NCBI RefSeq assembly: GCF_014652275.1
Contig: NZ_BMYM01000002.1
Location: 620,001-684,000 of the forward strand
Source: Parahalioglobus pacificus
Lineage (GTDB): Bacteria > Pseudomonadota > Gammaproteobacteria > Pseudomonadales > Halieaceae
Length of the DNA: 64,000 nucleotides
Direction of reading: 5' to 3'
The notes below the pieces were generated by a model, which was not told the origin of the DNA, searched no databases, and saw nothing but the letters and a program-made list of their open reading frames with translations. The position numbers and the translations under genes were made by a program. Of this stretch, positions 15,897-55,617 are shown piece after piece (position 1 is the stretch's first letter; each line of letters opens with the position of its first letter).

Positions 15897-15936
15897 TATC
15901 TAGCCGTGCTTAATTTGCCCGGCGGCTCGCCGGGCC

Positions 15937-16749
15937 CTAACGCACGATCAATACTGGGTGTACTGCCGCCTTTTTGCCGTTGGGATTGAGCTGGCGCATT
16001 TCGGGCGTCAGTGCGGCCAGCGTGGCACCGCGGTTACCCGGAGAGGGATGCGTGCTGAGAAATTCCGGCGGTGCCTTGCCGGCATTTTGTCCCATCTTGT
16101 CCCAGAGGCTAACAGCCGCATCCGGGTCGTAGCCGGCACGGGTGGCTAGCTCGATACCCAGCCTGTCGGCTTCCAGTTCCGCGGTGCGGCTATTGGGCAG
16201 CTCGAGCGCCACCTTTGCTGCCACCGAGGCCCCCGCCATGGTGGCCACGGGGCGATCTGAGGCTACGCCCACCGCCAGTACCCCAAGACTGGTCGCCATG
16301 GCTCGGGACATGCGCTCGGCCGTATGATTGGCCAGCGCATGCGAAATCTCGTGCCCCATGATCTGGGCAAATTCGTCGTCTGTCAGTTTGAGCTTTTCGA
16401 ACAAACCGGTGTACACCGCCATGCGACCGCCGGCCATGCACCAGGCGTTCACAGTCTCAGGGTCATCGATGATGGCAACACTCCACTCCCAGTTGGCAGA
16501 TTTTGGGTATAGCGCGATGGCCTCGGTGACGAGTCGCCCTGTGATTCTGGCGACGCGATCTGCCATGCGCGGGTCATCGACCAGCTTGTTCTCCTGGTCC
16601 AGTTGGCTAACTGTACTGAGGTAGGCCTTACGCGATTCCACGATGGCTGCATCAGGCGAGATCAGCATTAGCTGGGAGCGCCCTGTGGGGCTGGTCGCAC
16701 AGGCGCTGACCAGTAGTGCGAGCGCAATAACAGTGATAAGGCGTGGCAT
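15937..16749 (-). CDS. M48-family zinc metalloprotease lipoprotein
   Basis: 270 residues. The leader ends in LLVSACATS, a lipobox with Cys near residue 17, so the protein should be lipid-anchored in the envelope. The zinc motif HEISH (about 131-135, in IMGHEISHALANHTAE) and a downstream ELEADRLGIEL third-ligand segment are intact. Relatives such as LoiP and BepA act in outer-membrane protein quality control. It converges with the DUF885 gene across a 40-bp gap. Confidence 0.88.
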   Translation of the reverse strand: MPRLITVIALALLVSACATSPTGRSQLMLISPDAAIVESRKAYLSTVSQLDQENKLVDDPRMADRVARITGRLVTEAIALYPKSANWEWSVAIIDDPETVNAWCMAGGRMAVYTGLFEKLKLTDDEFAQIMGHEISHALANHTAERMSRAMATSLGVLAVGVASDRPVATMAGASVAAKVALELPNSRTAELEADRLGIELATRAGYDPDAAVSLWDKMGQNAGKAPPEFLSTHPSPGNRGATLAALTPEMRQLNPNGKKAAVHPVLIVR

Positions 16750-16960
16750 AACAATCTCCTGGCTGTGATGCGAGTGCCGGTTGCCGATTCAAAGGCTCAG
16801 TGTAGCCGAATAGCCTGCGCGGGTGATCCGCAATTACTGGCCCTTTGATCGCAGATGTCGACGCGCCCGAGGCGCCGGCAGGGCTGTGTCATTCAATACT
16901 TCGACTGCGCCGGGGGGTGAGAGGTTCCTCCTGCGCCCTCCCCATAAAAACCCGACACAT

Positions 16961-16985
16961 AAAAAAGGGGCGCTATTGCACCCCT
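16961..16985 (-). terminator. Rho-independent terminator of the Rieske oxygenase gene
   Basis: Read on the minus strand, AGGGGTGC, a 4-base AATA loop and GCGCCCCT form an 8-bp stem with one G-U pair, followed directly by six Ts. It lies about 20 bp past the stop codon at 17006. Confidence 0.75.
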
Positions 16986-17005
16986 GGGTATCTCTCGCGA
17001 CAGTG

Positions 17006-18100
17006 CTAGGCGGTGAAGCGTAAATCCCCGTCGATATTGTGGTTTACCTCTTCGGGGGTTTTCAGTCCCTGGGTGAGGTGTTCGCCATTGACCTCAGCCT
17101 GAATGTCGCTCATGTCCTCAGGCTTGGCGTAGAACTGCGAGTACCACTTGCGTCCCAGTCGGAAGGGGCCGTCGGTCTTTAGCTGCATGATCCGCAGTGC
17201 CGGGCGCTTGTTCTGCCAAACGTTGAAATCGGCGCCGAAAGCTTCCAACGCGCCTGCTTGAGCCTCTCTGGCGGCGGCCTTGTCCTCGGCGCTGGCGGGA
17301 TTGCTCTGGCCTTTATAAAGGATGGCATGCCAAGCTTTCACCAGGCCGTCTTCAATGGGTGTATTGGCGATCAGCTCATAGATCTCATTACCGGCAAACA
17401 CCTGTTTGGAGAGCAGCAGGCCCGGTCCCGTGTACCAGGTCGTGGTTTGCAAATAGGTCTGGTACAGCTGCATCGGACCGCCTTGTCGCTGGATGTACAC
17501 GTGGTCCTTAAACTCATTGGCAAAGTACTCACAGGGTGCACCGTGGGTAGGGCCCAGATGGCGCGCGTCCGCCATATTGTCCAAGATCTCCTGCGGGTGG
17601 ATCGCCAGCTCACCCAGATGGTCTAACTCCCACTGCACCCACTGCGGGTCATCCCATTGTGACAGCATGGGTGGCTGATAGTCGGGCTCCCGGCCATCCG
17701 GGTCATACCAGGCCATGATGCACCCCATATTGTCGACCACCGGGTAGGAGCGTATTGCAGCAGACTTGGGGCAGGGGCCATCGAAATAAGGAATATCGTT
17801 AACCTGTCCATCGGGGCCATAGCGCCAGCCGTGGTAGGGGCAGCGAATGGAGTCGCCTTCGATTTGCTCGCCGTTCTTGACGATCATCGCGCTTTCGCTG
17901 GCCGTCAAGTGCGTTCCCATGTGTGCGCAGTAGGCATCCAAAAGCACGGGCTTGCCGCTCTCTCCGCGGTACAGCGCCAGGTCCTCACCAAAGAACCGTA
18001 CCGCCAGCGGACCGTCATCCAGTTCCTTGCTTTCGGCGACGATAAACCACCCACGTGGGAAGGTATTCGGTCCCAGGTTGTAATCAGCTGCGAGGGCCAT
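17006..18100 (-). CDS. Rieske [2Fe-2S] ring-hydroxylating-type oxygenase
   Basis: 364 residues. The Rieske cluster ligands are CAHMGTH (about 57-63) and CPYHGW (about 85-90), with a somewhat long spacer between them. The mononuclear iron site is the DNMADARHLGPTHG segment near residue 175, which supplies the bridging Asp and two His. This is the terminal oxygenase component of a two- or three-part monooxygenase; its reductase is not in the window. Its layout recalls KshA-type steroid hydroxylases and other small-alpha-subunit oxygenases, but I cannot assign a substrate. Confidence 0.85.
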   Translation of the reverse strand: MALAADYNLGPNTFPRGWFIVAESKELDDGPLAVRFFGEDLALYRGESGKPVLLDAYCAHMGTHLTASESAMIVKNGEQIEGDSIRCPYHGWRYGPDGQVNDIPYFDGPCPKSAAIRSYPVVDNMGCIMAWYDPDGREPDYQPPMLSQWDDPQWVQWELDHLGELAIHPQEILDNMADARHLGPTHGAPCEYFANEFKDHVYIQRQGGPMQLYQTYLQTTTWYTGPGLLLSKQVFAGNEIYELIANTPIEDGLVKAWHAILYKGQSNPASAEDKAAAREAQAGALEAFGADFNVWQNKRPALRIMQLKTDGPFRLGRKWYSQFYAKPEDMSDIQAEVNGEHLTQGLKTPEEVNHNIDGDLRFTA

Positions 18101-43015: not shown

Positions 43016-43999
43016 GTGCAGCCGTTACTGTCCGTTGTTATTCCCGTCTTTAACGAGGCGCCAGTACTTGAGGCATGCTACCAGCGTCTGGTGGCGGCCA
43101 CCGGGTCGCTGTCTATGCGTCTGGAATTTGTGTTTGTGGATGACGGCAGTAGCGACGGTAGTGTTCAACTGCTGACCGATCTGCGCAGTCGTGATGCCCG
43201 CATTGCATTGGTGGAACTCAGCCGAAACTTTGGCAAGGAAGTGGCGCTCACCGCGGGGTTGGATCACGCCGCCGGGGATGCCGTGATTATCATTGATGCT
43301 GACCTGCAGGACCCCCCTGAGCTGATCCCTGATTTCGTGGCTGCATGGCAGGAAGGCTACGACGTGGTCTACGGACAACGCGCCAGTCGTGCCGGTGAGA
43401 GCTGGCTCAAGCTGAAAACGGCCAGTTGGTTTTACCGCGTAATGAACGCACTCAGCGATGTGCCCATTCCTAACGATACGGGCGACTTCCGCTTGCTTAG
43501 CCGGCGCGCGGTGGGCGCCCTGGGTGAGCTCAGGGAGAAGCACCGTTATATGAAGGGCCTGTATGCGTGGATTGGTTTCCCCCAAAAAGCCCTGCGCTAC
43601 CATCGGGAGCCTCGCGCGGCTGGCGAGACCAAGTGGAATTACTGGCGGCTCTGGAATTTTGCCCTCGAGGGTATTACGTCATTCTCAACCGCGCCCCTGC
43701 GCTTTGCCACCTACCTCGGTGCCGTCACTTCGCTGGCAGCATTCCTTTACGCCATTTTCTTCCTGTTCCGGACACTGATTTTGGGCAACCCGGTACCGGG
43801 TTACCCTTCGCTGATAGTGATCATGCTGTTCCTGGGCGGCGTGCAGCTGTTGTGTCTGGGAATTATCGGCGAGTATCTGGGCCGCACCTACGGCGAAAGT
43901 AAGTCGCGCAGCCTGTACTTCACCAAGGGCTACCACCCCGCAGCCTTAGACCCTGCTGATGTCCACGGCGCTGTGTCTGATGCGACCGACAAAACATAA
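43016..43999 (+). CDS. GT2 family polyprenyl-phosphate glycosyltransferase (GtrB/ArnC/DPM-like)
   Basis: 327 residues, starting at GTG. The N-terminal GT-A fold shows IPVFNEAPVLE, VDDGSSDGS and the DXD-type IIDADLQDPPELI. Two C-terminal transmembrane helices (about 235-310) anchor it. It should load a sugar onto undecaprenyl phosphate for the membrane transferases around it. It pairs with the preceding GtrA. Confidence 0.88.
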   Translation: MQPLLSVVIPVFNEAPVLEACYQRLVAATGSLSMRLEFVFVDDGSSDGSVQLLTDLRSRDARIALVELSRNFGKEVALTAGLDHAAGDAVIIIDADLQDPPELIPDFVAAWQEGYDVVYGQRASRAGESWLKLKTASWFYRVMNALSDVPIPNDTGDFRLLSRRAVGALGELREKHRYMKGLYAWIGFPQKALRYHREPRAAGETKWNYWRLWNFALEGITSFSTAPLRFATYLGAVTSLAAFLYAIFFLFRTLILGNPVPGYPSLIVIMLFLGGVQLLCLGIIGEYLGRTYGESKSRSLYFTKGYHPAALDPADVHGAVSDATDKT

Positions 44000-44042
44000 A
44001 GCCTCCATTAATCCATCAACGCCCACCGACCATAAGCGCAGT

Positions 44043-45728
44043 ATGAGCCGACTCGAATCCATTCTCTGGCCCCTGGCGGGCATCGTATTATTTCTCTCCT
44101 TCGGTTACACCGAGATGGCCGGCTCCGATATGTGGTGGCATGTTGCCGCCGGGCGAGAAATCTTCCAGACCGGCACCATCTGGATGGTGGATGACTGGTC
44201 ATTCACGGCTCACGGTGCTGATTGGCTGAATCATGAATGGTTAAGTGATGTTTTTTATTGGCTTTGGGTATCTGCCTTTGGCGTGGAAACCTTGGTGTGG
44301 TGGAAGTGGCTGGTGGTCATCAGTACCTACCTGCTGCTGCAGCTCACCCTGTACCGCGTAACACAAAGCTGGCCGGCGGCTTTTCTGTGCTCAGCCATGG
44401 CCATACTGGTCGGTGCGCCCTTTATCGATGTGCGCCCGCATTTGTACACGCTGCTCAACATGTGTTTGCTGCTGTATTTGCTGCTGCAGCGCGACCGCCC
44501 CCTGTGGATATTGCTGCTGTTGTTCCTAGTGTGGGTAAACCTGCATGGCGGATTCTTTTTCGGCCTGATGGTGCTGGGTGCGCTGCTGTTTCCCTGGCGC
44601 AATCTGGGTTGGGAGCCGTTTAAGGCGGCGTTTCTGGTGGGCCTGGCCTGCCTGGCCGTTACCCTCCTGAACCCCTCGGGTATCGAGTCTCTCTGGTTTC
44701 CCTTGAAGTACGCCTTTGATGGCAGTTCGCCCTACCGCGAGATCGGGGAATGGTTGCCGCCGTTCCAGCCCGGCGGTATTCAGTCGCCCTGGTTCGCTAC
44801 CCTGGTGTGGTTTCCCTTGGCGGGTCTGGCGTATCTGGTGCCAGCCATTCGCCGCCATACCGGCGTACCCTGGGAAGGCCTGGTACTGACCGCACTGACG
44901 CTGGCCATGGCACTGACCAGTCGTCGCTTTATTCCCATTTTTGGTATCTCCCTGGCCGTTATGCTGGCGCCGCTGCTGGCGTGGGCGTTGATGTGGCTGC
45001 GCGACCAGCGCCTGCGTATTGCATTCGCCGTGATCGCGCTGGGCTTTGCACTGTACCGACAGCTTCCCTATCCGGTGCAGGCCGCTCCGGCATTTCACTA
45101 CCTCACAGCTGAGTACTCCTACCCCACTGACCTTGTGGATGCCGCGCAGCTCAATGGGCTTGAGGGTAAGGTATTTGCCTACTACAACTGGGGTGGTTAT
45201 TTGCACTGGCGCACCGATGGCGCTCTCAAGGTTTACATTGATGGGCGCGCAGACACTATTTATGAAGTCGATGAATACTTGAAGTACGTGAAAGTCCTGC
45301 GCGACGAGCCGGGTTGGCTGGATATCGTCGAGCAGTCTGGTGCCGACTACTTCCTCTGGCCACGTGGCATCGCGGGTGGCGCACAGAAGTACGCAGCCAT
45401 GCAGCAGTCGGGTAACTGGCGCTTCGTGTACATGGATGCCATGGGTTATTTGCTGGCCCGCAACGAGGTCGAACTGCCAACTTCCATCGAAAAGCCGCGT
45501 GATTCAGTCGATCGCATGGTCACACTGGGCTACGAGCGCCTTGGCGGAGGTGCTCCAAATAGGGCTGTCGCTCTGGCAACATCTGCTCGAGGGTTGAAGC
45601 CATGGCACCGCACCGCCTGTATGCTGGCCATGACGGCCTATGACATTATAAGCGATGCGGCCGCTGTGGATCGCGTTGCAGCCGCATGTTACCGCCAATT
45701 TCCCACACCACTGTTTGAAAGAGAGTAA
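44043..45728 (+). CDS. Large polytopic membrane protein, GT-C-like
   Basis: 561 residues from the ATG at 44043. About 10-12 transmembrane segments, with a conserved first loop AGSDMWWHVAAGREIF and NHEWLSDVFYW. The C-terminal ~190 residues look soluble and periplasmic (GLEGKVFAYYNWGGYLHWR). The layout matches the GT-C superfamily, but I cannot name the sugar or acceptor. It is last in the glycan cluster, after the GT2 gene. Confidence 0.65.
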   Translation: MSRLESILWPLAGIVLFLSFGYTEMAGSDMWWHVAAGREIFQTGTIWMVDDWSFTAHGADWLNHEWLSDVFYWLWVSAFGVETLVWWKWLVVISTYLLLQLTLYRVTQSWPAAFLCSAMAILVGAPFIDVRPHLYTLLNMCLLLYLLLQRDRPLWILLLLFLVWVNLHGGFFFGLMVLGALLFPWRNLGWEPFKAAFLVGLACLAVTLLNPSGIESLWFPLKYAFDGSSPYREIGEWLPPFQPGGIQSPWFATLVWFPLAGLAYLVPAIRRHTGVPWEGLVLTALTLAMALTSRRFIPIFGISLAVMLAPLLAWALMWLRDQRLRIAFAVIALGFALYRQLPYPVQAAPAFHYLTAEYSYPTDLVDAAQLNGLEGKVFAYYNWGGYLHWRTDGALKVYIDGRADTIYEVDEYLKYVKVLRDEPGWLDIVEQSGADYFLWPRGIAGGAQKYAAMQQSGNWRFVYMDAMGYLLARNEVELPTSIEKPRDSVDRMVTLGYERLGGGAPNRAVALATSARGLKPWHRTACMLAMTAYDIISDAAAVDRVAAACYRQFPTPLFERE

Positions 45729-45735
45729 TGGAACG

Positions 45736-47376
45736 ATGAAGCAATGGATCGCTTTGGCCGCGTTGGCGTTAGCACAGGCAAGTAGCGCCGCCACACTGGT
45801 TCACAACGTGCACGGCTACACCATGGACGGCGAAACTGTACGTGAGTTTGTTGCCATGGAGTTTGATGACGGCAAAGTTACCGCGCTGTACGAGAGTGAG
45901 GAGGCCAGTGAGGCCAGCACGGCAGAGACCAGCATCGATGGCGAGGGTGCCACGCTGCTGCCGGGTCTGATTGATGCCCACGGCCACGTGAGCTCGCTGG
46001 GCCGGGCGCTGGCGTCGGTGAATTTGGTAGGCGCCACCAGCGAAGCTGAAGCGGTTGAGCGTGTAGTGGCCTTTGCCAAGGCCAATCCCGATGCGCCCTG
46101 GATTGTCGGCCGCGGTTGGAATCAGGTGTTGTGGGAGGGGAAGCAGTTTCCGGACCGGCAATCGCTGGATGCAGTGGGTGATCGGCCCGTGGCCTTGCAG
46201 CGCATTGATGGCCACTCCATGTGGGTGAACAGCATGGCGCTGGAGATGGCAGGGATCGACCGCGAGACGGTAGACCCTGAAGGCGGGCAAATCGTGCGCG
46301 ACGTGGCGGGCAGGGCTACCGGCGTCCTGGTCGATAACGCCATGTCCCCCGTGTTTGCGGCGATACCCACTGACACGGATGAGCTGATCGCCCAATTCCA
46401 GCTCACCGCATTGAACAACCTCGCCGCCAACGGCATTACCTCGGTGCACGATGCGGGAATCACCGCACAGGAGCTACGCGGGTTCGACAGCCTGCTGGCC
46501 GCGGGCAACATGCCAGTGCGCGTGTATGCCATGTTGGATGTGCTGGACCCTGAGAACGACAAAAATCTGGCGACAGGCCCTCGTGAAGATGAGGCAAGCT
46601 TGCTGTCTGTGCGCAGTGTAAAGATCTCCGCTGATGGCGCGCTGGGTTCCCGGGGCGCGGCGCTGTTCGAGGACTACAGCGACGACCCCGGCAACAAAGG
46701 GCTCTTGCTGCTTACGCCCGAGCAACTGACGCATCATATGAATCGCGCCGCCGCGGCGGGTTTTCAGGTAAACACGCACGCGATTGGCGACTTGGCCAAC
46801 GATCGTGTGTTGTCTGAGTACGAGCGCCTCAATAAGGAGGCAGAGACCCGCGCCCTTCGTCACCGGGTAGAGCATGCGCAAATACTGCGCCCAGCGGATA
46901 TTGATCGGTTTGAAGCTGCCGGCATTGTTGCCTCCATCCAGCCCGTTCATGCGACCAGTGACAAGAACATGGCCGGAGATAGACTGGGTGATGTGCGACT
47001 CAAGGGCGCCTACGCCTGGCACGCGTTGCTGGCCAGTGGCGCGCAGCTAGCCGGTGGTTCGGATTTTCCCGTGGAAGAGGTTAACCCTTTCCTGGGCCTG
47101 CATGCGGCAGTGACACGACAGAGCAGGGACAACCACCCTGAAGGTGGGTGGTTGCCCGGCGAAAAGCTGGACCGCGCTGAAACCCTGCACCTGTTTACCC
47201 AAGGCAGTGCCTACTCGGCCCACCAGGAAGAACTCATAGGCACATTGCTGCCGGGGTTCAGCGCCGATTTTATACTGCTTCGTGATAACTATTTCACCGT
47301 CGACGAGCAAGACATTTGGAAGAACAAGGTGCTCTCGACGTATGTGGCCGGACGACGTGTGTATCAGGCCCCGTAA
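45736..47376 (+). CDS. Exported amidohydrolase family 3 protein (YtcJ-like)
   Basis: 546 residues from the ATG at 45736, opening a signal peptide (about 1-19). The metal site begins with DAHGHV (HxH) and continues through RVEHAQILR and the final GSDFPVEEVNPFLG Asp. This is the amidohydrolase 3/YtcJ group. It should hydrolyse an amide- or imide-like bond in the periplasm; the substrate is unknown. The stop lies 2 bp before the phosphatase gene start, so they may share a transcript. Confidence 0.85.
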   Translation: MKQWIALAALALAQASSAATLVHNVHGYTMDGETVREFVAMEFDDGKVTALYESEEASEASTAETSIDGEGATLLPGLIDAHGHVSSLGRALASVNLVGATSEAEAVERVVAFAKANPDAPWIVGRGWNQVLWEGKQFPDRQSLDAVGDRPVALQRIDGHSMWVNSMALEMAGIDRETVDPEGGQIVRDVAGRATGVLVDNAMSPVFAAIPTDTDELIAQFQLTALNNLAANGITSVHDAGITAQELRGFDSLLAAGNMPVRVYAMLDVLDPENDKNLATGPREDEASLLSVRSVKISADGALGSRGAALFEDYSDDPGNKGLLLLTPEQLTHHMNRAAAAGFQVNTHAIGDLANDRVLSEYERLNKEAETRALRHRVEHAQILRPADIDRFEAAGIVASIQPVHATSDKNMAGDRLGDVRLKGAYAWHALLASGAQLAGGSDFPVEEVNPFLGLHAAVTRQSRDNHPEGGWLPGEKLDRAETLHLFTQGSAYSAHQEELIGTLLPGFSADFILLRDNYFTVDEQDIWKNKVLSTYVAGRRVYQAP

Positions 47377-47378
47377 CG

Positions 47379-48155
47379 ATGTCTAAAGCTCCCGAGTTAC
47401 CCCAGGCACCCATCTCCATCGATGTTTTGCACGATGAAGTTGAAGTGGCGCGCGAGATTCAGTTCAGCATTTTGCCGCCGGAGATGCCCAATGTGCCGGG
47501 CTACGAGCTGTGGGGCATGCTCAGACCTACAGCGCACACCGGTGGTGACATGTTCGATCTGGTGGCTCTGGAGCAGGGCGTTTTTGTGCTGTTAGGCGAT
47601 GCAACGGGGCATGGCTACGGCCCGGCCCTGTCGGCGACCCAGATGCAGGCCATGTTTCGCGTTGCTTTTCGGTTGGGCGCGAACCTTGACCAGGCCTATG
47701 TGCATGTGAATAACCAGATGTCAGAGGATTTGCCCGAGGATCGCTTTGTCACCGCCTTTCTGGGTTTCCTCGATCCGCAGACTCATCGCCTGCGTTATCA
47801 CTCCGCGGGTCAAGCGCCTATCCTGCACTTCAAGGCCGAGAGCGGACAGTGTGACTGGTACGGTCCCACCACATTTCCGCTGGGCAGCTTGCCGGTAGAT
47901 CGAGCCGCGGCAGACATGACCCTCGCCATGGGGCCTGGCGATGTTGTGGCCCTGCTGTCGGACGGGGTGTACGAATACCCCGACGGGGGTGAACACGTGT
48001 TTGGAACAGAACGCGTATCAAAACTGATCTCTGAAGGTGGTGAGCGCTCACTTTCTGAGTTGTCGTCAGACCTTCTCGCCGCGCTGGCAACCTTTGGTGA
48101 AGGCGCCGTGCAGGAAGACGATATCACCGTCGTGCTGCTTCGACGCTCGGCCTGA
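47379..48155 (+). CDS. PP2C-type serine phosphatase (SpoIIE/RsbU domain only)
   Basis: 258 residues. A short VAREIQFSILPP linker leads into the phosphatase core with metal Asp residues in GGDMFDLV, LGDATGHG, LLSDGVYE and EDDITVV. There is no sensor domain, unlike many RsbU proteins, so signal input must come from elsewhere. It should dephosphorylate a STAS protein, here the one encoded at 48630-48920. Confidence 0.9.
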   Translation: MSKAPELPQAPISIDVLHDEVEVAREIQFSILPPEMPNVPGYELWGMLRPTAHTGGDMFDLVALEQGVFVLLGDATGHGYGPALSATQMQAMFRVAFRLGANLDQAYVHVNNQMSEDLPEDRFVTAFLGFLDPQTHRLRYHSAGQAPILHFKAESGQCDWYGPTTFPLGSLPVDRAAADMTLAMGPGDVVALLSDGVYEYPDGGEHVFGTERVSKLISEGGERSLSELSSDLLAALATFGEGAVQEDDITVVLLRRSA

Positions 48156-48223
48156 ATTGCCTGTCGTGGCCCTGGTCACTGATCTACACTGAGAGGACGG
48201 GAACGGATTCCTCGGGTGCATAA

Positions 48224-48637
48224 ATGCAAATTTCGCTGGAGAGAGACATCAATGAGATTGACCGTATCGTGGCGGCGACGCGTGCGTATTTCCAGGATCA
48301 GCAATTGCCTGACAGCCTCGTTCCCACGGTAGACCTGGCCACCGAAGAGCTATTCGTAAACATGGTTCGCCACGGTCAGGCGGGTGATGCCCGTATCGTG
48401 TTGGAGATGGCTCCCACGGAAGGTGGGGTGGCCGTGACGCTGATCGATACCTCCAGCGATCCTTTCGACCCCCGCAATGTGCCTGATGTAGATACCCAGG
48501 CACCGCTAAACAAGCGGGAGCCCGGTGGTTTGGGGCTTTATCTGGTCAACCTGCTGGTGTCGGATATAGACTACGAGTTTCGCGACGGGACCAGTAGAGT
48601 CACGTTTCACGCGCGTACAGGGGAACGCGATGTTTGA
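48224..48637 (+). CDS. Anti-sigma regulatory kinase, RsbW/SpoIIAB-like
   Basis: 137 residues, GHKL-type ATPase. The N box is TEELFVNMVRHG and the G-rich lid is PGGLGLYLVNLL. Such proteins bind a target (usually a sigma factor) and phosphorylate a STAS antagonist. The 3' end overlaps the STAS gene by 8 bp. Confidence 0.88.
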   Translation: MQISLERDINEIDRIVAATRAYFQDQQLPDSLVPTVDLATEELFVNMVRHGQAGDARIVLEMAPTEGGVAVTLIDTSSDPFDPRNVPDVDTQAPLNKREPGGLGLYLVNLLVSDIDYEFRDGTSRVTFHARTGERDV

Positions 48638-48920
48638 GATTAGGCAGGACGGGGATTACCTGCGCCTGAAAGGCCGGCTTGATGCGGCGCAAGCGGCGGG
48701 GGCGGAGTCGGCATTTGCCGATATCACGGCCGGCGCATTGCTGGATATGTCGGCGCTGGAATATATCTCCAGCGCGGGACTGGGCCTGCTGTTGAAGACT
48801 CACAAACGGCTGATGGGCCAGGGTGCGGGCCTGAAGCTGGTGGAAGTGAACCCCCACATCGCCGATATCCTCCATTATTCGGGTTTTGATCGTCTTTTTG
48901 ATGTGACCCGGGAAAAATAA
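48630..48920 (+). CDS. STAS-domain anti-sigma factor antagonist, RsbV/SpoIIAA-like
   Basis: 96 residues, a single STAS domain. The MSALEYISSAGLGLLL segment carries the phosphorylatable Ser. When dephosphorylated it should sequester the RsbW-like protein. Coupled to the kinase gene by overlap. Confidence 0.9.
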   Translation: MFEIRQDGDYLRLKGRLDAAQAAGAESAFADITAGALLDMSALEYISSAGLGLLLKTHKRLMGQGAGLKLVEVNPHIADILHYSGFDRLFDVTREK

Positions 48921-49017
48921 AATATCAATAAAAACAAAGTGCTACGTCTAATTTTTACCCTTATCGACGGTTTCTGTGAAAACCCTTTCCAACTTTATCC
49001 GATGGCGCTGGTAAGTC

Positions 49018-49572
49018 ATGGGTAAGGAGATGGAAAGGGCCAGGGACGGCCAGCTCGTTCAACGAGGACTCCAGGGAGACCGTCAAGCGCTGGAAGCGCT
49101 GGTGAATCTGTACCACGGTGCGATTTACAAGCTGGCTTACAGGATGTTGGGTAACAGGGAGGATGCCGCAGATGTCACACAAACGTGCTTTCTCAAAGCC
49201 TTTGAGAACCTCGGCTCCTATAACCCTGAATACAAGTTTTTCAGTTGGTTGTACCGCATCGGCATCAACGAAGCCCTTAACACACGACGACGAAATGCAG
49301 GAATTGAACCCCTTGATCAGCCGATTCCTGATCAAGGAGATGGTCCGGAGCTGGCTACCGGGAACGATGAGCTCCAAACGCAAGTCCAGACTGCACTGAT
49401 GCAGCTGAACGACGAGCACCGGGCCGTGATTACGCTGAGGCATTACTCCGAATGCAGTTACGCTGACATGGCCGTCATCCTGGCTGTACCGGAAAAGACC
49501 GTAAGGTCCCGATTGTTTGAAGCCCGCCGCAAGTTGCAAGGCGTGCTAAGTGCAGCCGGAGTGGAGAGGTAA
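49018..49572 (+). CDS. ECF (RpoE-type) RNA polymerase sigma factor
   Basis: 184 residues. Region 2 includes YRMLGNREDAADVTQTCFLKAF and region 4 includes ECSYADMAVILAVPEKTVRSRLFEARRKL. It recruits RNA polymerase to a specific promoter set. Its stop is followed directly by the next gene, an apparent membrane anti-sigma factor. It is 97 bp after the partner-switching genes. Confidence 0.92.
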   Translation: MGKEMERARDGQLVQRGLQGDRQALEALVNLYHGAIYKLAYRMLGNREDAADVTQTCFLKAFENLGSYNPEYKFFSWLYRIGINEALNTRRRNAGIEPLDQPIPDQGDGPELATGNDELQTQVQTALMQLNDEHRAVITLRHYSECSYADMAVILAVPEKTVRSRLFEARRKLQGVLSAAGVER

Positions 49573-50268
49573 ATGATTAGCGAAGTGGACAAGCTGGCAT
49601 TACAAGCGGCGATCGACGGCGAACTGGATGTCGCTGCCGAAGCCGAGCTGCGTCAGCGTCTAGGCGACAACTCCGAGGCCTCTGAACTGGAAGCATCGCT
49701 GCGCGGGTTGTCTGAAACCCTGGCCGCGGACCCAGAGCCGGAAGTGCCGGCGAACCTTGAGAGCTACATACTCCAGTCGGTGCCGCTGCCGGTTGACCAT
49801 CGCGCCAAAACACAGGTTGTTACACCCCTGCCAACCCGCAAGCGCCCGGAGTGGCAGGGCTTTGCCATGGCTGCCAGTTTGTTTGTTGCGGTCATTTTGG
49901 GGGTGGGAGCGCTGTTCCCGGATGAGATCAACGGCGATCTCGCCGGTCAGATGACTGGTACCCTGCTGCCTTCCGATGCCCAGGTGCTCGGCGAAGCTCG
50001 CCTGGATTGGCAGTCGGTGGAAGCTGACCTCCAGTTGCTTGGGACTGACGATGGCGATCTGGCTCTGGGCCTGCGCGCTGACGCCGATCAGACCACAACT
50101 TTTTCATTCATTGATCCGGTTTCCGGCCAGTCGTATGCAGAGGTAGTGGTTGACGGCGAGACTGCGAAGCAGCTCCCGTTACCCAATCCCGTCTCCTCCG
50201 TTCAGGTCGATGTTTTCCAGAAGGGCCAACTTGTGCACCGAGAGGTTCTTCAGGTTTTGGATGAGTAG
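49573..50268 (+). CDS. Probable membrane anti-sigma factor
   Basis: 231 residues. A cytoplasmic N-terminus (about 1-90) with DGELDVAAEAELRQRL, typical of anti-sigma ASD regions, then one transmembrane helix (about 97-116, AMAASLFVAVILGVG) and a periplasmic domain. The HxxxCxxC zinc motif of ZAS proteins is absent. It immediately follows the ECF sigma gene, the standard arrangement. The function call rests on context and topology. Confidence 0.75.
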   Translation: MISEVDKLALQAAIDGELDVAAEAELRQRLGDNSEASELEASLRGLSETLAADPEPEVPANLESYILQSVPLPVDHRAKTQVVTPLPTRKRPEWQGFAMAASLFVAVILGVGALFPDEINGDLAGQMTGTLLPSDAQVLGEARLDWQSVEADLQLLGTDDGDLALGLRADADQTTTFSFIDPVSGQSYAEVVVDGETAKQLPLPNPVSSVQVDVFQKGQLVHREVLQVLDE

Positions 50269-50302
50269 TTCTCATCCCCTTTAGTAGCACCCCTGTAATC
50301 TT

Positions 50303-50327
50303 GGTGGCCTTTCGGCCACCTTTTTTG
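50303..50327 (+). terminator. Rho-independent terminator after the ECF/anti-sigma operon
   Basis: GGTGGCC, a 4-base loop and GGCCACC form a 7-bp perfect stem followed by six Ts. It lies 35 bp past the anti-sigma stop. Confidence 0.85.
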
Positions 50328-50404
50328 TTCTAGCCCTCTAAAAACACCGCACCAATAACCTCTGGGCTAGTCATTGCTTCAGCACGGAGTACACTGCTAG
50401 CGCT

Positions 50405-51457
50405 ATGGGATCGCTGCTTGCCGTGCCGATTGGATTGCTGCCCGTCATCATTTTTTTGGTGACGCTGTGGCGTATGGATCGACATCAGCTGACACCCTTG
50501 CCCCGCGTGATCAGACTGATTGCGGCAGGGATGGGCGCAGCCTGTGTGAGTCTGTTGGTCAGTGGGCTGCTAATAGAGATTTTACCGCCCGATCTAACGC
50601 GGCTTTTTCTGGCGCCGCTGATTGAAGAAACCGCTAAAGCCATGATCGTGGTTGCCCTGTTTCGGGCCAGCCGTATTGGTTTTCTGGTGGATGCGGCGAT
50701 CCTGGGGTTTGCGGTGGGTGCGGGCTTCGCGTTAGCGGAGAACCTGTATCTGATGGTGTTTGGCCCACCCATGGGTGAGGGCGTGTGGTTGGTGCGCGGC
50801 CTTGGGACCGCGGTGATGCACGGGGGTGTCACAGCAATCTTCGCCATTGTCGCGCAGCGGTTTACCGAGCGAAGTAAGCGGTTGGATCTGCAGTTTTTTC
50901 TGCCGGGGTTGGTGATGGCAACGGCGCTGCACTGGGCATTCAACCAATTTTACTTCTCGCCCATGCTGCACACCCTTGCGGTTTTGATTCTTCTCCCGTT
51001 GTTGTTGTTCCTGGTCTTTAGTAAGAGTGCCGACGATTTACGTATCTGGATGCAGCTGGACTTCGATGCCGATGCGGTCCTGATTCAGGAGATCAGTAGC
51101 GGGCAATTGAGAAACACGCGCGCGGGCGATTTTCTCGATGATATCCGTAATCGATTCCCCGGCGAGATCGTGGGCGACATATTGTGTTACTTGAGGATCT
51201 ATACCGAGCTGTCGTTACGCGCCAAAGGTTTGCTGATGATGCGCGAGCACGGCATGGAGCCGGAGTACGATCCGGCGCTGACCCCGTTGTTTGATGAGCT
51301 GCGTTATTTACGCGAGTCCATTGGGCAAATCGGCGTGTTGGCTCTGCAGCCATTCCTGAACTACGACCGCAAGCAGCTGTGGCAATTGCTTGTGCTTAAA
51401 GGACAGCACAGGGCCGGCGAGAAGGCCGCAATGCGCGAGGATTCGCGCCCGGGTTGA
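50405..51457 (+). CDS. PrsW-family membrane metalloprotease-like protein
   Basis: 350 residues with about 8 transmembrane segments. The PrsW signature is visible: EETAK (EExxK, about 77-81), ALAEN, a membrane MHGG and a later HWAFNQF. PrsW of Bacillus cleaves an anti-sigma factor in the membrane. Here it lies just beyond an ECF sigma/anti-sigma pair, so that anti-sigma is a plausible substrate, but a terminator separates them and this is inference. Confidence 0.8.
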   Translation: MGSLLAVPIGLLPVIIFLVTLWRMDRHQLTPLPRVIRLIAAGMGAACVSLLVSGLLIEILPPDLTRLFLAPLIEETAKAMIVVALFRASRIGFLVDAAILGFAVGAGFALAENLYLMVFGPPMGEGVWLVRGLGTAVMHGGVTAIFAIVAQRFTERSKRLDLQFFLPGLVMATALHWAFNQFYFSPMLHTLAVLILLPLLLFLVFSKSADDLRIWMQLDFDADAVLIQEISSGQLRNTRAGDFLDDIRNRFPGEIVGDILCYLRIYTELSLRAKGLLMMREHGMEPEYDPALTPLFDELRYLRESIGQIGVLALQPFLNYDRKQLWQLLVLKGQHRAGEKAAMREDSRPG

Positions 51458-51504: not shown

Positions 51505-51554
51505 AGGACTATAGCTCAGTTAGTTAGAGCACTTCCTTGATAGGTTAGAGGTCC
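51505..51554 (+). pseudogene. 5' fragment of a tRNA related to tRNA-Val
   Basis: Matches the first 50 nt of the tRNA-Val at 51674 at 44 of 50 positions without gaps. The acceptor 5' strand and D-arm are intact. The anticodon-stem has two mismatched pairs and the anticodon position reads GAT. The variable region runs straight into unrelated sequence, so the T-arm and acceptor 3' strand are missing. Confidence 0.85.
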
Positions 51555-51562
51555 GCAGGCGA

Positions 51563-51656
51563 CAAAACGCGACTCTGAAAGCGTTTTGGACAGCGCCCCG
51601 AAGGGGTCGCAACGCGAGAGGCAATCGCGGTGCGATCAATCTGGGTTTGCCCAGAT
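51563..51656 (+). other. Four consecutive hairpins between the tRNA fragment and tRNA-Val
   Basis: Four adjacent inverted repeats: 51563-51570 with 51581-51588 (8 bp, 10-nt loop); 51593-51599 with 51603-51610 (7 bp, one bulged T, GAA loop); 51609-51617 with 51625-51633 (8 of 9 pairs); 51639-51645 with 51650-51656 (7 bp, TTTG loop). Such a density of stems in 94 nt suggests structured RNA. It is not a T-arm and I do not recognise the family. Confidence 0.6.
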
Positions 51657-51673: not shown

Positions 51674-51750
<77 letters not shown>

Positions 51751-53382: not shown

Positions 53383-55617
53383 ATGAAAACGACAAGACTG
53401 CTGCCCCCCGCGGGTTTGTTCAAGCTCACGCCCATGAGCCTGCTTTTGGGCGCGACCATGGCCGCGGCCCAGGCGCCGGATGCCGGGAACCAAATTGAAG
53501 AGGTTATCGTTCGCTCGTCGCCCCTACTGAGCACCTCTGATGAAATCGCGCTGGGCACCACAGTGCTGGATAGACAGGGCATTCTCCAGAACCTGAATGG
53601 TACCGTCGGCGAGACCTTGTCCAGTCAGCCCGGCGTCAGCTCAACCTTCTTCGGACCGGGGGCCTCCAGACCAATCATCCGCGGCCTCGGCGGCGATCGG
53701 ATTCGTGTCCTGACTAACGACATCTCTGCATTCGATGTGTCAACAGCCAGCCAGGATCACCTGGTGGCCACGGAGGTGGCTACTGCGCAGCAAATCGAGA
53801 TTCTTCGCGGTGCCTCCACGCTTCGTTACGGCCAGAACGCCGTGGGCGGCGTTGTGAACGTTTACGACAATCGCATCCCCCGTAGCGCTCCAGAAGATGG
53901 TTTGGATGCTGAAATCTTCGCCGGTTACTCAACGGTGGACGATGGCTACACCGTTGGTGGCTCGGCGGATGTTAGCGCCACCGATAACCTTGTGTTGCAC
54001 GTTGAGGCTTCCGATCGCGACGCCGACGAATACGACATTGATGGCTTTGCGAGCGAAGCCGCTGAAGAAGAAGGTGTGAAGGACACGGTTGAGAACAGCC
54101 AGTCCGAAGCCACCTCCGGTGCTGCCGGTTTATCCTGGATTGGTGATCGGGGCTACATCGGCTTCGCTGTTGGCTACCAGGAAGGGACGTATGGCCTGCC
54201 TGGCGGCAAGAAGAAGGAAGAGGAAGAGGAAGAGGAAGAACTGGAGCTATTCGCCGAAGAGGGTGAGGAGGAGGAAGAGGAAGGCCCCATCACTATCGAC
54301 TTCGAGCAGATTCGCTACGATCTGGACGGCGAATACAACTTCGGCAATGGTCTGGTGAAGTTGGCCAAATTCCGCTTTGGTTATGCCGACTACGAGCACA
54401 CCGAGTTCGCCGGCGATGAGCCCGAAACCAAGTACGAGAATGATGAGTGGGAACTGCGTGCAGAGGCATTCATGAACGAGTTCGAGTTGGGCGCTGGCTC
54501 CGTGACCGGAACGTTTGGCGTAAACCTTGCCGATCGCGAGTTCTCGGCGGACGGTGAAGAAGCCTTTGTCCCGCTGAATGATCAGTTCCGTTGGGGCGTG
54601 TTCGGACTTGGGCGCTACGAGCTCGATATGTTCCACTTCGAGGCTAGCCTGCGGGTAGACGATCAGCAGAATGAGACAGATAACCTGGCCTTTGCCGGTG
54701 AGAGCTACGACGAGAGCGAAACCACCTACTCAGCCGCATTGACAGGTATTTACCACCTGAGTGATACCACCAGTATGGGCGTCAATCTGGCTCGATCTGA
54801 GCGTGCCCCCACGGCTGAGGAACTGTTCTCTAATGGCTTCCATGCCGCGACGAGTACAGTAGAGATTGGTGATACTAACCTCGATACCGAGGTGGCGTAC
54901 TCGCTAGAGCTCTCCCTGAAGAGCAGCTATGAAGCTCTAAACTACGGTGTGAACATCTTTTACACCGACTACAGTGACTTTATCTTCCTGAGCCCGACGG
55001 GCGACCTGTTCGAGGAAGGCGATCCGTTCCCCGCAGATGAGGGCTTCCCGGTGTTTGCCTACCAGCAAGCCGATGCGGAGTTCTATGGCTTCGAGGCTGA
55101 AGCCGATTTCCTTGCATTCAGCAATGACACCTGGGCGGTGTCCATTGATGGGCAGGTAGACATGGTGCGTGCGCAAACGACGGAGTCCACGACCTTTGGT
55201 GGAATCGAGAATGTTCGCGACGAGTTCACCCCGCTGGGCACAAGCGGCATAACCGTCGAGGAGGGTGACCTGCCCTTTATCCCGCCAATGCGTGTCCTTG
55301 GGGGTGTGGATATCGACTACAAGCCATGGCGTTCAACCCTGCGTGTTGAAGTGCAGTACGTTGATGATCAGGACCGCGTAGGCGAGACGCCAGAAGGGAG
55401 TGAAGTAGAACTGGCGGGCACTACGCCTACCGATAGCTACACCTTCCTGAACATCTATCTGACGACTCAGCCTTTCGCCAATGCGCAGAACGTAACCCTG
55501 TCGTTGCGCGGACGTAACCTGACTGATGAGTTTGCGCGTTCTGCCACGTCTTTCCTGGCCGAGTCAGCACCGTTGCCAGGGCGTGATATTCGTTTCGGTA
55601 TCAACGTGGCGTTCTAA
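53383..55617 (+). CDS. ZnuD-like TonB-dependent receptor with Glu-rich insert
   Basis: 744 residues with a signal peptide (about 1-30). The plug reads VGETLSSQPGVSSTFFGPG, then RPIIRGLGGDRIRVLTN and AVGGVVNVYDNRIP, the pattern of the ZnuD-type receptor group (zinc uptake in Neisseria). About residues 276-306 hold a long run of Glu (with a KKK start), replacing the His-rich loop seen in ZnuD proteins. This could bind metal cations. The barrel ends with the expected aromatic (GINVAF). The zinc assignment is inference. Confidence 0.82.
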   Translation: MKTTRLLPPAGLFKLTPMSLLLGATMAAAQAPDAGNQIEEVIVRSSPLLSTSDEIALGTTVLDRQGILQNLNGTVGETLSSQPGVSSTFFGPGASRPIIRGLGGDRIRVLTNDISAFDVSTASQDHLVATEVATAQQIEILRGASTLRYGQNAVGGVVNVYDNRIPRSAPEDGLDAEIFAGYSTVDDGYTVGGSADVSATDNLVLHVEASDRDADEYDIDGFASEAAEEEGVKDTVENSQSEATSGAAGLSWIGDRGYIGFAVGYQEGTYGLPGGKKKEEEEEEEELELFAEEGEEEEEEGPITIDFEQIRYDLDGEYNFGNGLVKLAKFRFGYADYEHTEFAGDEPETKYENDEWELRAEAFMNEFELGAGSVTGTFGVNLADREFSADGEEAFVPLNDQFRWGVFGLGRYELDMFHFEASLRVDDQQNETDNLAFAGESYDESETTYSAALTGIYHLSDTTSMGVNLARSERAPTAEELFSNGFHAATSTVEIGDTNLDTEVAYSLELSLKSSYEALNYGVNIFYTDYSDFIFLSPTGDLFEEGDPFPADEGFPVFAYQQADAEFYGFEAEADFLAFSNDTWAVSIDGQVDMVRAQTTESTTFGGIENVRDEFTPLGTSGITVEEGDLPFIPPMRVLGGVDIDYKPWRSTLRVEVQYVDDQDRVGETPEGSEVELAGTTPTDSYTFLNIYLTTQPFANAQNVTLSLRGRNLTDEFARSATSFLAESAPLPGRDIRFGINVAF
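54217..54240. repeat. Hexanucleotide repeat coding the Glu-rich loop
   Basis: Three perfect GAAGAG units and one variant (GAAGAA) encode Glu-Glu pairs within the ZnuD-like receptor. A second GAG/GAA-rich patch follows at about 54262-54282. Confidence 0.85.

Follow-up and report, generated by a model that had tools for sequence, protein, structure and literature searches.

A partner switch adjoining a SigW-like ECF sigma factor, its membrane anti-sigma factor and a PrsW-type protease in Parahalioglobus pacificus and related proteobacterial records

Sigma factors can be released by two classic routes, partner switching or regulated intramembrane proteolysis, which normally belong to different systems. 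In Bacillus subtilis, the intramembrane protease PrsW has been reported to cleave the anti-sigma factor RsiW (PMC3498285), and STAS proteins with unknown targets, including SypA, RbaV and BtrV, have become a recurring question (PMC8256260, PMC3999984). Here, we have analyzed a locus in a 64,000-nucleotide stretch of Parahalioglobus pacificus DNA (the window) in which both release routes adjoin a single ECF sigma factor, an arrangement shared by many gamma- and betaproteobacterial records and one suggesting that two modes of signalling, mostly studied separately, are combined in bacteria. Among the matches listed for literature that links ECF factors to partner switching, STAS, SpoIIE or PrsW, no title or beginning of an abstract described this locus. 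It sets a short list of candidate STAS targets beside the STAS gene, and natural losses shorten that list; therefore, the question of what a STAS protein acts on becomes directly testable here.

Gene content and conservation of the locus

The following features, all on the + strand, make up the locus:

47379..48155, +, SpoIIE-type PP2C serine phosphatase with no sensor domain (Pfam SpoIIE, 6.3e-39; no other domain found)
48224..48637, +, RsbW-like serine kinase, HATPase_c_2 (Pfam, 3.7e-17)
48630..48920, +, single-domain STAS protein with the serine pair S47/S48 (Pfam STAS, 2.9e-13)
48989..49013, +, ECF-type promoter-like site, CCAACTTT-N14-GTA, directly 5′ of the ECF start codon and conserved across loci
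49018..49572, +, SigW-like ECF sigma factor (Pfam sigma region 2, E=1e-15; region 4_2, E=9e-14)
49573..50268, +, membrane anti-sigma factor of 231 residues (no Pfam match; one TM helix; no cysteine)
49957..49962, +, juxtamembrane Gly-Thr motif (residues 129-130), common to the anti-sigma factor and the repeat protein of relatives
50303..50326, +, intrinsic-terminator-like hairpin 3′ of the ECF/anti-sigma unit, a consensus match only (7-bp stem, 50303-50320, and T6)
50405..51457, +, PrsW-type intramembrane protease (Pfam PrsW-protease, 8.3e-18)
51020..51454, +, C-terminal tail (residues 206-350) of PrsW, conserved and predicted to be cytosolic (no Pfam match)

The series of six genes that the sequence-only reading had described, running from the SpoIIE-type phosphatase through the RsbW-like kinase, STAS protein, ECF factor and anti-sigma factor to PrsW, is indeed present at 47379-51457 on the + strand, and so are the distance of 97 bp from the STAS stop to the ECF start and the membrane-bound anti-sigma factor without a zinc motif (0 cysteines in 231 residues, one TM helix). 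The start of the STAS gene overlaps the stop of the kinase gene. This gene order is far above chance expectation and, as judged by comparison with relatives, the window locus is a reduced version of a gene cluster conserved with the same order in many Gamma- and Betaproteobacteria.

The three partner-switch domains (PP2C, HATPase_c_2 and STAS) are all present with conserved active-site residues. D46, D63, D184 and D237 of the PP2C domain (domain numbering), which we take to be metal-binding, are invariant in 65/65 aligned copies, and the kinase N-box (E41/E42/N46) and glycine box (G101-G102/G104) are kept in 61/61 copies, one kinase stretch with an in-frame stop (L067) having been dropped. S48 of the STAS protein is found in 60/60 copies and S47 in 59/60; the pair presumably contains the phospho-acceptor, by comparison with SpoIIAA/RsbV. 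Throughout, the conserved residues of the phosphatase, kinase, STAS protein and PrsW are taken to be the catalytic or active-site ones. When compared with PDB sequences, the kinase alone had no match at E<=0.01, and the matches of the STAS protein (n=7) were all anti-sigma factor antagonists or sporulation proteins.

Relatives were collected as 67 loci with two PP2C peptide patterns, a sample in which loci without PP2C are under-counted (L069-L072, L079 and L116 are the records behind L067, L064, L063, L061, L062 and L065). A GAF domain shares one ORF with PP2C in 60/67 loci and the kinase does so in 18/61, and the 'minimal' and 'sensor-less' character ascribed to the module from the window alone thus turns out to be a lineage-specific reduction: judging from these relatives, the GAF domain of the phosphatase is lost in the window's lineage. 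Two cultured relatives, Parahaliea mediterranea and P. maris, carry this reduced locus as well, with prsW unlinked in P. maris.

Conservation of the five-gene order, which had been proposed as a check, was confirmed in 6/6 genomes (own included) having ECF and PP2C orthologues. STAS and ECF genes are adjacent and on the same strand in all 52 of the 67 loci that have both, which come from records labelled gamma- and betaproteobacterial. Separation of the two modules in relatives, named in advance as evidence against a connection, occurs in a minority only. Two genomes (G068 and G112) keep ECF and PrsW with the partner switch absent, whereas in three loci of betaproteobacterial MAGs (L113, L114 and L132) ECF is absent and the partner switch remains, as do PrsW and two further proteins described below. 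No ECF orthologue was found in the genomes of these three loci: L113 gave no match at E<=1e-30, and the best ECF-like matches in the genomes of L114 and L132 reached 120 and 125 bits, compared to at least 220 for three strong matches. Relocation of the ECF gene within these MAGs, whose completeness is not stated, was rejected on those scores. In two other genome searches, the second of which gave the three strong matches, at most 14 and 9 candidates per genome were scored, respectively. In addition, no ECF or PrsW gene occurs in the 9.3 kb that follow the complete partner switch of L124, and in L072 PrsW is missing from the neighbourhood. Since losses occurred in both directions, the coupling between ECF and partner switch is strong and not obligatory.

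The protease follows the sigma factor closely. A PrsW orthologue was detected in every one of the 7 genomes with an ECF orthologue and in none of the other 90 (97 in total, own included); in one of the 7 (G037), prsW is unlinked and its frame is still open, with ECF present. This 7/7 co-occurrence, together with the match of the anti-sigma factor to RsiW, supports the earlier suggestion that a PrsW-like protease may add a further layer.

The sigma factor arm and its promoter-like motif

The best NCBIfam model of the ECF factor is SigW at 114.8 bits versus a cut-off of 209, so that it is not a SigW equivalog, and the top PDB match of its family profile is B. subtilis SigW (7e-43). A dedicated anti-sigma factor was recognised beside ECF in 47/52 loci. 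In the window, the AlphaFold model of this protein (pLDDT 80, pTM 0.46) consists of a helical domain, the TM helix, a flexible linker and a periplasmic beta sandwich, and its profile matches RsiW (5wuq_C) at 8.1e-6 over positions 4-77. The whole model gave nothing at E<=0.001 by Foldseek against PDB (ChrR ranked 8, E=0.02), and a second structural alignment covered mostly residues 145-231 with common beta folds (Z ~8); whole-model fold search was rejected as a source of identity. ZAS anti-sigma factors carry an HxxxCxxC motif, and such a zinc motif is absent from the window protein.

Among 23 chosen and aligned anti-sigma factors, the Gly-Thr motif is invariant, and in a wider count it is present in 40/47. 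The seven misses comprise four proteins with GA or GS (L081, L085, L090 and L092), two that end before the site (L075 and L084) and one in which the wrong helix was picked (L076); the count excludes the duplicates L061-L065 as well as L066, L109, L115, L131, L133 and L135, which were unread or broken.

E71, E72, H136 and H173 of the PrsW domain, presumably the glutamic protease residues (EE and two His), are kept in 29/29 copies, and many positions of the tail are identical in 29/29. Hydropathy revealed seven hydrophobic segments with positive-inside loops. The protein scores 27.3 against the NCBIfam PrsW equivalog, below its cut-off of 225. Taken together, the SigW-like ECF, the RsiW-like anti-sigma factor and the co-occurrence of PrsW resemble an arm of the SigW-RsiW-PrsW type, and by analogy with that system PrsW may cleave the window's anti-sigma factor.

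Many loci add a membrane-anchored nonapeptide-repeat (9-residue-repeat) protein together with an outer-membrane-like barrel that bears an HExxH site and a TolB-like propeller, both of which are among the genes kept in the three ECF-less loci; the repeat gene is followed by the barrel gene and then prsW. Neither protein was found in the window's genome, and their relocation within it was rejected on that result. The repeat proteins diverge fast and carry the Gly-Thr motif after the TM segment, as in the anti-sigma factor, and in several betaproteobacterial loci anti-sigma factor and repeat protein read as a single open frame. A search for viral relatives of the repeat protein gave 13 stretches matching a pattern, none of which was confirmed, and its Pfam matches (DUF826 and others) contained no passing stretch and were taken as repeat artefacts.

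The promoter-like motif was trained on sites picked by the -35 half, the -10 half playing no part in picking. Upstream of the ECF genes of the loci, 51 sites at or above threshold were detected; the motif precedes the repeat gene in 12/23 loci (one of 24, L096, was dropped as its available piece has no Gly-Thr motif), and it is absent from the three ECF-less loci. None of the 63 upstream regions of partner-switch genes scored 14 or more, and on this basis these genes were rejected as members of the ECF regulon. Among random stretches from the same loci, 50/1000 reach the threshold; we take these to overlap real sites because a first-order Markov control was almost empty (1 site >=12 and none >=16 in 914 kb). 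The distribution of the motif points to an ECF factor that probably drives its own gene and the repeat protein gene, the partner switch probably being a separate cytoplasmic input. The site in the window is a weak version whose -10 side has drifted (score 9.2, versus 30.5 as the median of the 50 training sites). The pattern has two exact matches in the window's genome, of which the ECF site alone is in the canonical 25-nt form, and the reversed pattern, used as a control, gives four; with no second canonical site, a wide regulon in this genome was rejected. Canonical sites are few in nine genomes, and the regulon of this ECF looks very small.

The 97-bp gap between the STAS and ECF genes holds the promoter-like site, and the terminator-like hairpin separates prsW from the anti-sigma gene (6 terminator-like matches occur in the region versus a mean of 5.5 in shuffles). 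From the positions of the site and the hairpin, the cluster probably comprises three transcription units, not one.

Two proposed inputs to one ECF factor and the competing explanations

We give an even chance to a model in which this conserved locus provides two inputs to the ECF factor and the output of the STAS protein acts on the PrsW/anti-sigma arm. In the membrane arm, the RsiW-like anti-sigma factor would hold the SigW-like ECF until the PrsW-type protease cuts it near the membrane, after which the general site-2 protease and cytoplasmic proteases might follow, as inferred from B. subtilis, and the ECF would be freed. Free ECF would transcribe the genes of ECF and of the anti-sigma factor, joined in many relatives by that of the nonapeptide-repeat protein. 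In the cytoplasmic arm, the PP2C phosphatase and the RsbW-like kinase would together determine whether the STAS serine is phosphorylated, unphosphorylated STAS being the output; its likeliest contact would be the conserved cytosolic tail of PrsW, and the kinase would not bind ECF, unlike in the sigma-B and sigma-F systems. The model builds on what was observed of gene content and order, of the positions of the promoter-like motif, of conserved residues and of patterns of co-occurrence and loss; binding, cleavage, use of the promoter and the direction of regulation are its predicted parts.

Several observations stand against two inputs. G068 and G112 retain the ECF-PrsW arm without the switch, and therefore the switch is not needed for the arm; L124 keeps a complete switch with neither ECF nor PrsW in the following 9.3 kb, and L072 is without PrsW in its vicinity; the promoter-like site of the window is weak, and an individual site is missing for 11/23 repeat genes. 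Within the model, action of STAS on PrsW is favoured by the three betaproteobacterial MAG loci and by divergence: the STAS-PrsW pair is the best correlated of ten protein pairs (Spearman 0.88; pair numbers differ), although any co-inherited operon would raise such values.

The order of phosphatase, kinase, STAS and sigma genes is like that of the rsb and spoIIA operons, and together with the intact conserved residues of kinase and STAS protein it would suit classical partner switching, in which the kinase is a second, soluble anti-sigma factor on ECF that is titrated by unphosphorylated STAS. We consider this distinctly improbable, given the dedicated, RsiW-matching anti-sigma factor beside ECF, the kinase sharing an ORF with the phosphatase as reported for SypE (PMC8256260) and its persistence without ECF in L113, L114 and L132; on the same three grounds, the kinase was rejected as the main anti-sigma factor of ECF. 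More generally, the losses in both directions argue against a kinase that is simply the anti-sigma factor of this ECF. The MAG loci bear equally on another proposal, direct binding of STAS to the cytoplasmic domain of the anti-sigma factor with displacement of ECF. Both partners are cytosolic, their genes are neighbours, and an anti-anti-sigma step of this kind has been reported for an ECF factor in the case of PhyR acting on NepR (PMC8103513). However, the switch is retained in loci without ECF and anti-sigma factor, and conservation of the anti-sigma factor as a whole is poor: 22 others share 19-32% identity with the copy in the window, compared to 46-63% for 29 others of the well-conserved STAS. 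As the partner switch outlives ECF in those three loci, neither ECF nor its anti-sigma factor is a likely target of STAS there, and for the family such binding seems doubtful.

A looser arrangement, in which switch and ECF unit are functionally independent neighbours and STAS serves another output, would account for the ECF promoter-like site between the modules, its absence before partner-switch genes and the finding of either module without the other. It has a parallel in the Bordetella Btr switch, which reportedly acts on secretion and also post-transcriptionally, with BtrA as a separate anti-sigma factor for BtrS (PMC7498569, PMC8256260). Adjacency in 52/52 loci across gamma- and betaproteobacterial records speaks against independence, which we hold to be rather unlikely.

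Returning to the two-input model, a more speculative extension, for which we see only a slim chance, is that STAS on the PrsW tail lets a cytoplasmic GAF signal license cleavage of the anti-sigma factor. The repeat protein would then be either a second PrsW substrate, sharing the Gly-Thr motif with the anti-sigma factor and competing for PrsW as a decoy in a feedback, or the regulated product itself. The window's lineage would represent such a gated-protease system stripped to switch, sigma factor, anti-sigma factor and protease.

Comparison with known systems

The RsbU/RsbW/RsbV and SpoIIE/SpoIIAB/SpoIIAA systems have the same three domains, with active-site residues intact as here. They differ in that the output sigma factor of the present locus is probably an ECF factor with its own membrane anti-sigma factor and that GAF, phosphatase and sometimes kinase occupy a single ORF. 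The SypE-SypA locus of Vibrio fischeri is not known to contain a sigma factor, and its sensor domain differs. It is similar in that kinase and phosphatase are joined and act on a STAS protein whose target is not known (PMC8256260). In the general stress response of Alphaproteobacteria (EcfG-NepR-PhyR), a partner-switching step likewise controls an ECF factor, but it uses a sigma-like response regulator and not STAS phosphorylation (PMC8103513); no PhyR-type regulator or NepR domain was found among ten neighbouring proteins scanned. The btr locus of Bordetella combines phosphatase (BtrU), kinase (BtrW) and STAS protein (BtrV) with ECF BtrS and anti-sigma factor BtrA, and its switch is reported to act on secretion (PMC7498569). 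There, genes intervene, the anti-sigma factor is secreted whereas that of the window has a TM helix, and PrsW is absent from the printed gene table (PMC7498569).

The SigW-RsiW-PrsW system of B. subtilis is matched in the best match of the ECF factor to SigW, the match of the anti-sigma factor to RsiW and the retained glutamates and histidines of PrsW. The promoter spacing, AAC-N16-nGTA, also resembles the sigma-W consensus. Differences are that the NCBIfam SigW and PrsW equivalog cut-offs are missed and that canonical promoter sites are few in the nine genomes, compared to 89 genes reported for sigma-W (PMC3498285). Unlike that system, moreover, the present locus adjoins a partner switch, and its PrsW family has a conserved 145-residue tail.

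Conservation of the signalling locus

The 3.4-Mb genome of the window carries six signalling genes at this locus, whose identities and places are as the sequence-only reading had proposed:

47379-48155, + strand, SpoIIE/PP2C phosphatase
48224-48637, + strand, RsbW-like kinase
48630-48920, + strand, STAS protein
49018-49572, + strand, ECF sigma factor
49573-50268, + strand, membrane anti-sigma factor
50405-51457, + strand, PrsW protease

The first three constitute the partner switch. A glycosyltransferase, a transmembrane (TM) protein and an amidohydrolase lie 5′ of it (43016-47376), and the same genes are upstream in three relatives (L061, L063 and L064), the amidohydrolase not being found upstream in L062. 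Only 2 bp separate the amidohydrolase stop codon from the start of PP2C, so the partner switch may use the amidohydrolase promoter. On the other side, 51507-51570 appears by eye to be a copy of the 5′ portion of the tRNA-Val gene (51674-51750); it is not reported as a tRNA, and could reflect a partial duplication or be the scar of an old integration. At 53383-55617, inspection by eye also picked out a TonB-receptor-like protein containing long glutamate runs.

A total of 97 genomes, own included, were searched with the ECF sigma factor and then with PP2C, orthologues being defined by 131 bits or more for ECF (next match 100) and 268 bits or more for PP2C (next 96). Each was detected in 7 of the 97 genomes, and both in six. 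Conservation of the five-gene order in relatives had been set beforehand as a check, and the PP2C, kinase, STAS, ECF and anti-sigma domains are contiguous on one strand in 6/6 genomes with both orthologues (the window and L061-L065), PP2C and kinase forming one gene in L065. In the seventh PP2C genome (G009), a contig end cuts the locus inside STAS; the seventh ECF genome (G068) has no partner switch beside ECF. The seven genomes with an ECF orthologue are exactly those with a PrsW orthologue; in G037, prsW has an open frame and lies on a different contig.

Scanning genome contigs with a PP2C alignment yielded 67 loci, mostly from metagenome-assembled genomes (MAGs) labelled Gammaproteobacteria, Lysobacterales, Betaproteobacteria or Burkholderiales. 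With profiles built from relatives, PP2C, kinase and STAS were recognised in 60 of these and both STAS and ECF in 52, adjacent and on the same strand in 52/52 (profile gap 45-215 bp, median 83); the anti-sigma factor was also recognised in 47 of the 52. A second sample, comprising 369 genomes from the class with the window's genome among them, was not ascertained by PP2C. It contained strong STAS matches in two genomes, with ECF adjoining in both, and a weak STAS match in G231, where ECF is absent. Strong ECF matches came from three genomes, among them G112, which lacks a partner switch. The locus is real and conserved; the lead was a good one, its interpretation right in part only.

The fuller form of the locus in relatives

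The module had been described as minimal and sensor-less, but the window copy is a reduced form of the locus, as a GAF domain is present in the PP2C ORF in 60/67 loci. The kinase is also part of this ORF in 18 of 61 loci, such as the 563-residue GAF-SpoIIE-HATPase_c_2 protein of genome G019. In addition, two extra genes recur 3′ of the anti-sigma gene, encoding a repeat protein and a barrel protein. In 25 of the partner-switch loci, the sequence continues for 7.3 kb or more beyond STAS; ECF was found in 22 of these, PrsW in 23, the barrel gene in 16 and a clustered repeat gene in 11. The complete order (GAF-PP2C-kinase, STAS, ECF, anti-sigma, repeat protein, barrel, PrsW) is seen in 13 loci and also in G261, and neither extra protein was found in the window's genome, G002, G015, G037 or G050 (genomes searched).

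The repeat protein (24 loci) has about 400 residues and is membrane-anchored, its conserved N-terminus including a TM segment and then GTIVPAERYRG, followed by tandem repeats whose consensus varies between genomes. A period of 9 or a multiple scored best in the 19 repeat proteins measured, weakly in L080; L097:12975-14399 encodes a long array of about 40 nine-residue repeats. Within a genome the consensus is often near-uniform (SDAFRDAMR, NQNFQAALGD, SNPLFAQAM and RDPAFSGLL in different genomes), as if homogenised through repeated expansion, and betaproteobacterial loci have the units GNQA, GNAA or STGQ.

The barrel protein (26 loci) has about 987 residues and combines a TolB-like beta-propeller with a C-terminal barrel-like, outer-membrane-like part. 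H127-E128-H131 and E181 are invariant in 20 sequences (mean column identity 65%), an HExxH...E pattern that we take to be gluzincin-like. The L073 protein (14300-17251) has one weak Pfam match only (Omp85_2, E=0.01).

Genome G019 also holds a decayed second copy (L068:7348-9605) with a GAF piece, STAS, ECF with a promoter-like site, anti-sigma and a PrsW piece, the phosphatase and kinase being missing. In a Rubrivivax MAG (L128:3950-5596), a related GAF-PP2C is followed by STAS and then kinase, in reverse order and with no ECF recognised, which is a partner switch of related kind in a different setting.

The ECF unit and its promoter-like site

Among PDB entries, B. subtilis SigW is the best match of the ECF profile (7e-43). 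The anti-sigma profile in turn matches RsiW (8e-6, positions 4-77), whose site-1 protease is PrsW (PMC3498285). In the anti-sigma model (pLDDT 80, pTM 0.46), a helical N-terminal domain is followed by a TM helix, a loose linker and then a beta sandwich. Across 23 aligned anti-sigma factors from Gammaproteobacteria, 19-32% identical to the window copy, D15, L18 and P59 of the cytosolic domain and G129-T130 of the juxtamembrane linker are invariant. A wider count found Gly-Thr in 40/47 anti-sigma factors, with GA or GS in four, and repeat proteins have the same motif after the TM segment, which suggests shared processing of the two proteins. The anti-sigma domain and repeat protein share one frame without a stop in L106, L112, L118, L120, L121 and L122, and L115 looks the same; of the first six, L121 is labelled only Proteobacteria and the others Betaproteobacteria or Burkholderiales. 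The junction contains a promoter-like site and a methionine, so the repeat protein may in addition be produced separately.

A near-invariant site, CCAACTTTT-N13-GTAnTT, occupies the STAS-ECF gap directly before the ECF start codon. Collection by the -35 half gave 53 such gap sites, window included. With a position matrix, 51 sites were located upstream of ECF genes across the 67 loci, and 12/23 loci showed a second one ahead of the repeat gene; none precedes the GAF/PP2C gene (0/63), barrel gene (0/27) or prsW (0/29). From this distribution, the promoters read by the ECF factor are most likely its own and, in loci that have one, the repeat-gene promoter, the partner switch not being under its control. 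All 11 repeat genes that lack a site are closer to the anti-sigma gene (113-182 nt from anti-sigma stop to Gly-Thr codon vs 187-279 nt), so transcription from the ECF promoter may extend into them. In nine further loci (L103, L105, L106, L112, L115, L118, L120, L121 and L122), a second site follows the first by 815-821 bp. L119 and L123 have no ECF call and end soon after STAS, yet contain the site. The window retains only the ECF site, and in weak form (score 9.2). At 49018, and at the same place in 52 other loci, the start codon annotated for ECF directly follows the -10 element, so that the transcript would be leaderless or start inside the annotated gene; the start-codon letters deviate in L082, L085, L121 and L122.

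Possible targets of the partner switch and known systems

Catalytic and phospho-acceptor residues of the partner-switch proteins are kept, and three classes of loss bear on what they act upon. In L113, L114 and L132, GAF-PP2C, kinase and STAS are retained together with the repeat protein, the barrel and PrsW, but neither the promoter-like site nor an orthologous ECF was found in the locus, nor such an ECF in the available genome sequence. In G068 and G112, ECF, barrel and PrsW remain and the partner switch is absent; the window and its Parahaliea relatives keep partner switch, ECF, anti-sigma and PrsW, the repeat and barrel proteins being absent. All three classes contain PrsW, which has a well-conserved, predicted cytosolic tail of 145 residues with no Pfam family, and for these reasons a putative contact between STAS and PrsW is ranked first, through which the partner switch would be linked to the membrane arm. 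L124, with a complete partner switch and neither ECF nor PrsW nearby, is a counter-example to this ranking. A possible contact of STAS with the anti-sigma factor is ranked second, functional independence of the partner switch and the ECF unit third, and direct contact of the kinase with ECF last.

Several known systems are comparable. The Bordetella btr locus likewise has partner-switch and ECF genes together and a secreted anti-sigma factor, and its partner switch reportedly acts on secretion (PMC7498569, PMC8256260). In SypE-SypA, a joined kinase-phosphatase acts on a STAS protein whose target is given as unknown (PMC8256260), and in EcfG-NepR-PhyR an ECF factor is controlled through partner switching by other parts (PMC8103513). 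Related STAS systems are discussed in PMC9239204 (Campylobacterota) and PMC3999984, the latter setting up a two-hybrid test of a kinase against sigma factors. Among the matches listed from the open-licence literature, a partner switch joined to a SigW-RsiW-PrsW-like unit was not found described; its parts are of known kinds, and their combination is a new variant.
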